Assembly (NCBI GenBank): GCA_016178705.1
Contig: JACOST010000028.1
Span: 766,951 to 830,950, forward strand
From: Deltaproteobacteria bacterium
GTDB lineage: Bacteria > Desulfobacterota > Binatia > HRBIN30 > JACQVA1
Direction: 5' to 3'
Length of the DNA stretch: 64,000 bases
In this document: one piece after another, positions 15,236-37,494 of the stretch
Numbering within the stretch: the first letter of the stretch is position 1
How the letters are laid out: the number at the start of each line of letters is the position of its first letter
Made by a program: the position numbers and the translations under genes
The notes under the pieces: model-generated
Database searches by the model: none
The model's input: only the letters and a program-made list of their open reading frames with translations
What the model was told of the DNA's origin: nothing

Positions 15236-15378
15236 CGAAAAACGCCCGGACTCCCCTCTACGGGGACCCAGGCGTTCGGCCCACCAGCGTCAGCACTCCC
15301 TCGTGGTCGGTTCCACGCGATCCCGATGCGGGACCCTCCGGAGTTCCACCGGAGTCGCCAGTCGTGCAGTCGATGACT
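15236..15378 (-). ncRNA. Probable ZTP (pfl) riboswitch in the glyA leader
   Basis: On the minus strand the leader has the hallmark ACTGGCG (15356-15362), then GTGGAAC hairpins, a CGTGG-loop-CCACG hairpin followed by AGGGAG, and near the 3' end CGCCTGGGT. GGCG in the first block can pair with CGCC in the last, the pseudoknot expected of ZTP aptamers, and ZTP riboswitches are often found upstream of glyA. The P1 helix is imperfect and there is an extra hairpin between ACTGGCG and the second domain, so the assignment is not certain. The 3' conserved block also forms one arm of a terminator, as in known ON-type ZTP switches. Confidence 0.65.
15238..15278 (-). terminator. Intrinsic terminator in the glyA leader
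   Basis: The minus-strand sequence AACGCCTGGGTCCCC, loop GTAGA, GGGGAGTCCGGGCGTT forms a long stem with only two wobble-type differences and is followed by TTTTTCG. It overlaps the conserved CGCCTGGG of the putative aptamer, so ligand binding and termination would be mutually exclusive. Confidence 0.75.
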
Positions 15379-36616: not shown

Positions 36617-36730
36617 ACGCATCGCCGATGGCCGATGGCTTGAGGTCGGAGAAGATCTCGATCTGCCCGACCTACCATCAGCCATCTGCTATCAGCCACC
36701 AGCTCATCCGCCATCTGCCATCAGCGAGTT
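36617..36730. repeat. GCCATNN heptamer array, second copy
   Basis: Right half reads in 7-bp steps ACCATCA, GCCATCT, GCTATCA, GCCACCA, then GCCATCT, GCCATCA. Left half has GATGGCC, GATGGCT and a GAGGTCGG / CCGACCT pairing, so the region can fold back imperfectly. It lies between divergent hydrolase and redoxin genes. Confidence 0.7.
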
Positions 36731-36764: not shown

Positions 36765-37478
36765 ATGTTGCTGGTGTCCATCGCCGTCTTGGTCGGGGCT
36801 ATCGCGGTCTACGCGCTGACCCCGGCGCTGCTGATCTATTGGAAGTACCCGTGGCCGATTTACGGCGCGATGCTCGCGTCGGTCGCGCTCGCGCTCGGCA
36901 GTCGCCGCCGCGGCATCCTACGCTACGCCACCGTTGGTCTCACCGGATTGGTGACGGTCGGGTTCCTGATGGTCACACTGTTCACGACTAGGCTCGATCA
37001 CGGCCAGCTTGCGCTGCGACCAGGCGATCCCTTTCCCGATTTCACGCTGACGACTTCCACCAAGCACCCGTTCTCATCCGCCGAACTCAAGGGCCAGAGC
37101 GCGGCGTTGTACATCTTCTATCGTGGCGATTGGTGACCCTTCTGCCGTGCTGAGCTCGGGCAGCTCACAAAATACTACGGACAGATCGAGCAGCAGGGGG
37201 TGAAACTGTTTGCGGTCAGCGTCGACGAGCCGGACGCGTCGGAAGCGCTGCGGCAGCGCTTGCACTGTGACTTCACGTTCCTCTCGGATTCCAAGGGCGA
37301 GGTGCTCGATCGGTTGAACATCCGCCATCGCAACGGCCACGAGGGTCACGACATTGCGTTCCCCACCCAAATCCTGGTCGACAAGAGCGGCATCGTGCGC
37401 TGGACGTTCGAGTCGGACGACCTGCGCGTCCGCGTCGAACCTGAGCAGATCTTCACTGCCATCGCCGCACTGCCGTGA
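36765..37478 (+). CDS. Membrane-anchored redoxin (AhpC/TSA-like) with selenocysteine at an in-frame TGA
   Basis: The frame runs 237 sense codons with one TGA at codon 124 (37134-37136). The N-terminal third has three hydrophobic segments (VSIAVLVGAIAVYALTPALL, a second near residue 30-45, and a third near 57-72). A thioredoxin-fold AhpC/TSA domain follows, beginning LRPGDPFPDFTL. At the active site the sequence is YRGDW-TGA-PFCRAEL; homologous redoxins have GDWCPFC there, so TGA replaces the peroxidatic Cys and the resolving Cys of a UxxC pair is kept. The protein continues in frame as a normal redoxin (VKLFAVSVDEPDAS, FPTQILVDKSGIVRW). A hairpin 20 bases after the TGA fits a bacterial SECIS element. 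It probably reduces peroxides or disulfides at the membrane. A nonsense mutation is the alternative, but frame conservation on both sides and the hairpin argue for selenocysteine. Confidence 0.85.
37151..37167 (+). promoter_or_regulatory. Putative bacterial SECIS element
   Basis: TGAGCT - CGGGC - AGCTCA forms a 6-bp stem with a 5-nt apical loop having G at its second position. The loop begins 20 bases after the TGA codon, within the 16-37-base window known for bacterial SECIS elements, and the hairpin is in the coding frame. It should bind SelB to insert selenocysteine. selA/selB/selC are not in this window. Confidence 0.7.
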
Positions 37479-37494
37479 CTCGTGAGTCGTGACA
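37474..37494. repeat. Short CGTGANN array over the redoxin stop
   Basis: CGTGACT, CGTGAGT, CGTGACA: three heptamers, the first of which contributes the TGA stop codon of the redoxin gene. It ends before the thiolase ribosome-binding site. Confidence 0.65.

Follow-up and report, generated by a model that had tools for sequence, protein, structure and literature searches.

A redoxin gene seemingly interrupted by a stop codon, in the 64,000-nucleotide stretch of DNA analysed here (the window), most likely encodes a single redox protein, with selenocysteine (Sec, U) inserted at an internal TGA. The gene is a well-supported additional member of the already known Prx-like UxxC selenoprotein family, and its predicted product is most likely a membrane-tethered thiol:disulfide oxidoreductase (Table 1). 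The earlier note on this DNA, made from its letters and open reading frames, had proposed selenocysteine at a UxxC site in a membrane-anchored redoxin. Each of these elements is supported: selenocysteine by a TGA conserved in the UxxC motif of relatives and by Sec genes in the same genome, UxxC by the GDW-U-PFC read from the sequence and by its recurrence across TGA-bearing relatives, and the anchored redoxin by an AhpC-TSA domain with predicted hydrophobic segments at the N-terminus.

Table 1 Features of the selenoprotein gene (positions within the window)
Feature	Position	Strand	Basis
Putative selenoprotein gene, 237 aa, Sec TGA as codon 124, TGA stop	36765..37478	+	Reading frame; full-length G001 homologue with the same TGA, 60% identity
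Three predicted membrane helices, residues 2-25, 30-45 and 52-77	36768..36995	+	Helices in a low-confidence part of the AlphaFold2 model; hydropathy finds two of the three
Redoxin domain, residues 86-237, peroxiredoxin fold	37020..37475	+	PF00578; structure model; PDB match AhpE
TGA probably decoded as Sec (U124), the U of UxxC	37134..37136	+	Reading frame, conservation in relatives
TGC codon of Cys127, the C of UxxC, which matches the peroxidatic Cys in alignments	37143..37145	+	Alignments; Cys in 23/24 aligned members
Candidate bacterial SECIS-type stem-loop, 6 bp, loop CGGGC	37151..37167	+	Fits printed limits; modest covariation in a 12-gene group
Pro200 codon; Arg in peroxiredoxins at this column	37362..37364	+	Alignment; Pro in 22/24; low model confidence

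A redoxin frame interrupted by a single TGA

Apart from one internal TGA and the final TGA at 37476-37478, the frame is open throughout, and the sequence around the former reads YIFYRGDW-U-PFCRAELG when TGA is translated as U. The Pfam AhpC-TSA domain (PF00578) spans residues 86-213, across the TGA (E 7.1e-27, 94.3 bits against a cut-off of 26). As the earlier note had predicted of annotation pipelines, the standard ORF list divides this frame into a membrane stub of 123 aa, ending at the internal TGA, and an incomplete fragment. The window has 171 TGAs flanked by 50 or more open codons in both directions, and by codon usage the internal TGA ranks third among them; the two that outrank it, at 37476 (the redoxin gene's own stop) and 56343, are in our judgement stops whose neighbouring gene happens to share their frame. 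A thiolase-like ORF (GTG at 37482) starts one codon past the redoxin's own stop and in its frame, so that in this one gene TGA would encode Sec at one site and serve at another as a stop followed by open frame. What goes beyond chance is not the downstream stem alone but the position of the TGA, mid-domain and flanked by coding sequence in either direction.

Conservation of the TGA in relatives

Every one of the 98 genomes searched holds some relative, because redoxins are common, and the loci read were the best match from each of the 30 genomes with the highest scores, among them the window's own. TGA is present in 21 of these 30 loci, always within UxxC (21/21), and Cys occupies the position in the other nine. 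The second Cys is missing from three of the nine Cys loci (L021, L022 and L030), which read YRGDYCPFA, with the first Cys retained and the second gone. A further 20 loci, preselected for the presence of one TGA, all carry it in UxxC, including UTYC and UPPC variants. At L020 (G056:C793) a pair of Sec-type redoxin genes, both with UPYC, lies at positions 849 and 1621, with about 0.8 kb between them. A quick tree of 49 rows (40 with U, 9 with C), many of whose forks are weak, has at least six changes of the Sec/Cys state, and 16 of its 46 inner branches are open. Named genome contigs yielded three distant relatives, all with Cys, in a search that reaches close relatives only; among viral contigs, 25 stretches fit the search pattern and none encodes a relative.

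The closest relative, from a genome of the same family as the window's own (G001), shares 60% protein identity and has TGA at the same codon. Over the 113 codons that follow the TGA, the two genes differ with dN ~0.22 and dS ~1.0, and over the first 80 codons with dN ~0.49; judged from these rates, purifying selection is acting beyond the TGA. We regard this conservation of the TGA in relatives, a sequence-level signal, as the decisive evidence for the observation. The TGA might instead be a true stop or a sequencing or assembly error, leaving a pseudogene or a membrane stub plus remnant, as the standard ORF list implies by reading it as a stop and as would suit the commonest stop of the window (28 of 46 selected ORFs). 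Yet the same codon recurs in G001 and in many genomes, selection persists downstream of it and the genome holds a complete Sec gene set, so that the chance of a true stop or an error appears close to negligible.

Selenocysteine machinery

The window's genome (6.1 Mb, 98% complete) encodes selA (597 bits), an adjoining selB (389 bits) and selD (407 bits), together with a tRNA with TCA anticodon that both ARAGORN and Rfam call tRNA-Sec; the check for sel genes in the same genome suggested in the earlier note thus came out positive for all four. The combination named there as speaking against selenocysteine, a genome without sel genes and homologues that never carry U, is contradicted on both counts, by these genes and by the U loci described above. 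The selD gene (L043, 1501-2430, - strand) has an in-frame TGA at GAGUACK and is by its sequence a selenoprotein gene itself. Suppression or recoding of UGA as another residue, such as Cys or Trp, could draw on the Cys-bearing relatives, which show that Cys can serve at position 124, but it is highly improbable given a tRNA-SeC (TCA), selA, selB and a Sec-type selD, and given that TGA otherwise serves as a stop, including that of the redoxin gene itself.

Across the searched genomes, selB is found at E <=1e-60 in 77/98. The association of selB with Sec state is not significant (18/21 U genomes vs 6/9 Cys genomes, p 0.33), one of the six selB-bearing Cys genomes (G085) scoring below the family cut-off. 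Three U genomes (G015, G060 and G075) have no selB match at 1e-60: in G015 (scored 100% complete) and G060 (80%) the best tRNA-Sec match is a tRNA-Ser, and G075 (87% complete) lacks a selB match yet has a tRNA-SeC. A further U genome, G068 (87% complete), has selB, but its best tRNA-Sec match is a tRNA-Leu.

A SECIS-type stem-loop downstream of the TGA

In the stem-loop (UGAGCU-CGGGC-AGCUCA), 14 nt separate the TGA from the stem and 20 nt separate it from the loop, which lies within the bSECIS limits printed in PMC13188914 (loop of 3-9 nt, stem of 4-16 bp, a G at loop position 1 or 2, distance of 16-37). Its location and SECIS geometry are therefore as the earlier note had them, but the structure taken alone is no better than chance, whether judged by folding of the stem region (z -0.85, with 37/200 shuffles folding equally well), by synonymous reshuffling (an equally good model stem in 9.5% of 200 reshuffles) or against the TGA triplets of the window, 221/1703 of which have a model stem as good. 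We thus rejected the stem-loop as stand-alone proof.

Among relatives, the model stem is present in 38 of 39 Sec genes, with a mean stem z of +1.71 against synonymous reshuffles, and in four of five Cys genes, with a mean z of -0.07; folding energy separates the two the wrong way (mean z -0.49 for the 39 Sec genes vs -1.24 for the five Cys genes). For covariation, genes were grouped by stem register, a choice that itself favours the structure. In the 12-gene group that holds the window gene, two of six pairs are changed on both sides (U-A/C-G and C-G/G-C), for a covariation score of 0.152 that none of 500 shuffles reached and that stayed at or below 0.061 when the stem was slid; the outermost pair (U-A/C-G) fails in 7/12 of these genes, and the count of changed pairs (reached by 116/500 shuffles) and the pair types (by 247/500) are unremarkable. 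An 18-gene group in another register has six of seven pairs changed on both sides and scores 0.430 (0/500 shuffles; <=0.137 when slid). Across relatives the stem thus covaries, strongly in the 18-gene group and modestly in the group of the window gene. In 17 of the 18 genes of the former group (alignment A2) the Leu codon in the SECIS loop is TTR; three Cys genes from that subgroup (L015, L023 and L028) have CTC or CTG there, as do 20 of the remaining 21 Sec genes, the exception being L075 with TTG. TTR is a possible synonymous mark of the SECIS in the 18-gene group.

A thioredoxin-type site in a peroxiredoxin fold

An AlphaFold2 model built from three sequences has a mean pLDDT of 72.8, with 81-93 over the redoxin block except residues 181-200 (64, 49), so that the placement of Pro200 rests on alignment. 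Its top-ranked PDB match is AhpE (Z 22.8, rmsd 1.7, 151 residues); the top-ranked structural matches are peroxiredoxins, Foldseek also lists ResA, and ResA is among the sequence matches as well. When the protein is aligned to solved peroxiredoxins (2ywn, 2cx3 and AhpE 1xvw), Cys127 falls on the peroxidatic Cys and U124 on the Thr/Ser of TxxC, which rejects the proposal that the TGA sits exactly at the peroxidatic Cys. The classical PxxxTxxC motif with Thr/Ser is absent: it reads RxxxUxxC here, with Arg120 in place of the Pro. The catalytic Arg that precedes the late strand in classical peroxiredoxins is absent too, the family's Pro occupying that column of the alignments; we take Pro200 to be the cis-Pro of thioredoxin-type proteins. 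Across 24 chosen relatives, R120, U/C124, P125, L131 and W213 are invariant, while C127 is retained in 23/24 and P200 in 22/24. With U/C in place of Thr/Ser and Pro in place of Arg, the active site is, as far as these alignments indicate, of thioredoxin type within a peroxiredoxin fold. By the same features the window gene fails the classical peroxiredoxin definition, sharing the fold and lacking both PxxxTxxC and the catalytic Arg.

The product is most likely a membrane-tethered Prx-like UxxC selenoprotein with Sec at codon 124, acting as a thiol:disulfide oxidoreductase through U124 and Cys127. SelB and Sec-tRNA(TCA), whose genes are present, would act with the stem-loop just past the UGA to insert Sec at codon 124, in a product that combines the peroxiredoxin fold with an active site resembling that of thioredoxin. 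By analogy with the family, the U124 selenolate, just before the first active-site helix, would attack a disulfide or another oxidised substrate, Cys127 would resolve the intermediate as a U124-C127 selenenylsulfide, and a thioredoxin-like donor would reduce this bond again.

The top-ranked peroxiredoxin structures, among them AhpE, and the thiol-peroxidase model PRK09437, matched by 24/24 relatives at E <=0.001 (best 1.3e-17), allow for peroxidase activity as a less likely alternative. The protein would then be a membrane-anchored peroxiredoxin variant, a selenium-assisted peroxidase in which the peroxide reacts with Cys127, the residue aligned to the peroxidatic Cys, or with U124, and whichever of the two is left resolves. 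The replacement of the classical catalytic Thr/Ser by U and of the Arg by Pro, and Arg120 in place of the Pro of PxxxTxxC, speak against this role, which we consider unlikely. A broader picture, in our view a long shot, is of a class-wide lineage of membrane-tethered selenoredoxins with a hybrid site inside the peroxiredoxin fold: Sec would replace the catalytic Thr beside an intact peroxidatic-position Cys, and selenium may be a built-in partner that resolves or activates a peroxide-reducing Cys at the membrane. Subgroups that differ in their anchor, and perhaps even in the direction in which they span the membrane, would then act on different sides of it.

Predicted membrane anchor

The three N-terminal helices are modelled with low confidence (block pLDDT 46-60), and hydropathy detects two of the three in the window protein. 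Residues 1-123 contain no Cys, which argues for an anchor rather than a thiol relay; in the thiol:disulfide oxidoreductase proposed above, the helices would serve only as an anchor. Among the 44 motif-bearing genes fetched, three N-terminal hydrophobic segments were found in 27, two in 2, four in 1, one in 12 and none in 2. With at least two such segments in 30/44, the membrane part is not the oddity it had been taken for, except perhaps among textbook peroxiredoxins; the one-segment proteins may have signal peptides or single anchors. The charges of the window protein, with an RRR loop between helices 2 and 3, tilt the balance towards a redoxin domain on the periplasmic side. In three relatives (L015, L028 and L057) the charge falls in the first loop instead, an arrangement that would place the domain inside, and the charge-based topology is not uniform over relatives.

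Relation to known families

A Prx-like family in which a thioredoxin-like UXXC replaces TXXU has been described (PMC1088965), and TXXU and UXXC are given as homologous motifs of two known families with Sec at different positions (PMC1914089). Table 1 of PMC13188914 lists a Prx-like thiol:disulfide oxidoreductase (PF00578, UxxC/UxxU) separately from a 'Redoxin family protein' (PF08534, UxxC); with 94.3 bits to PF00578 and 70.9 bits to PF08534, the gene fits the Prx-like family. It shares with that family, as presented in the printed descriptions (PMC1088965, PMC13188914), the AhpC/TSA domain, UxxC at the TxxU site, Cys homologues and a SECIS-type stem just past the UGA, and differs from those descriptions in its three predicted N-terminal membrane helices. 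Such an anchor of three helices may represent an undescribed architecture, the comparison with published representatives being by description only.

Three other groups are related more distantly. The Sec-containing peroxiredoxins (TxxU; NCBIfam peroxi_PrxU, NF040737) share the fold and Pfam domain, but their Sec is the last residue of TxxU, whereas here it stands at the T position, three residues earlier; the profile gives 25.5 bits, below its cut-off of 270. ResA and TlpA are membrane-anchored thiol-disulfide oxidoreductases, and ResA likewise has an N-terminal anchor, of one helix, and a Pro that precedes the late strand. In the alignment with a ResA variant (3c71, CPHC), U124 falls on the first Cys of CxxC, but the window protein has three predicted helices instead of one and Sec instead of Cys, and its score to the ResA profile NF002854 (50.4 bits) is below the curated cut-off of 170. 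The SelL-related redox protein NF040769 has a related redoxin domain, matched by 22/24 relatives at E <=0.001; the window protein scores 39.4 bits against a curated cut-off of 120. We found no literature on selenoproteins in Binatota, or on SECIS-bearing selenoprotein redoxins of soil metagenomes.

Genomic neighbourhood and significance

The neighbour scan covered eight proteins at four related loci and two in the window, a subset of the ORFs there. The window contributed the thiolase-like protein and an OB-fold/zinc-ribbon protein, G001 proteins of 4Fe-4S and FAD type and one without a family, G068 a multicopper oxidase and an inositol monophosphatase, G085 FHA and CNNM/CBS proteins, and G054 a GST-like protein. 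No family is common to the scanned neighbours of these five loci, and the proteins scanned include no obvious redox partner beside the redoxin gene. An opposite-strand ORF near the redoxin is, in our own reading and with no family call, an alpha/beta hydrolase. Elsewhere in the window, the gap upstream of the gene (36620-36730) holds short repeated words like GCCATCTGC/CATCAGCC, noticed by eye, and a ZMP/ZTP riboswitch lies at 15259-15375 on the - strand (50.6 bits against a gathering score of 39).

Given the presence of selB in most of the searched genomes of this class (77/98) and of TGA in most of the redoxin loci read (21/30), we infer that the selenoproteins of the class are probably under-annotated. 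The family offers natural Sec/Cys pairs, to the extent that the repeated state changes (at least six) hold on the 49-row tree, many forks of which are weak, and it offers SECIS groups open to direct comparison.
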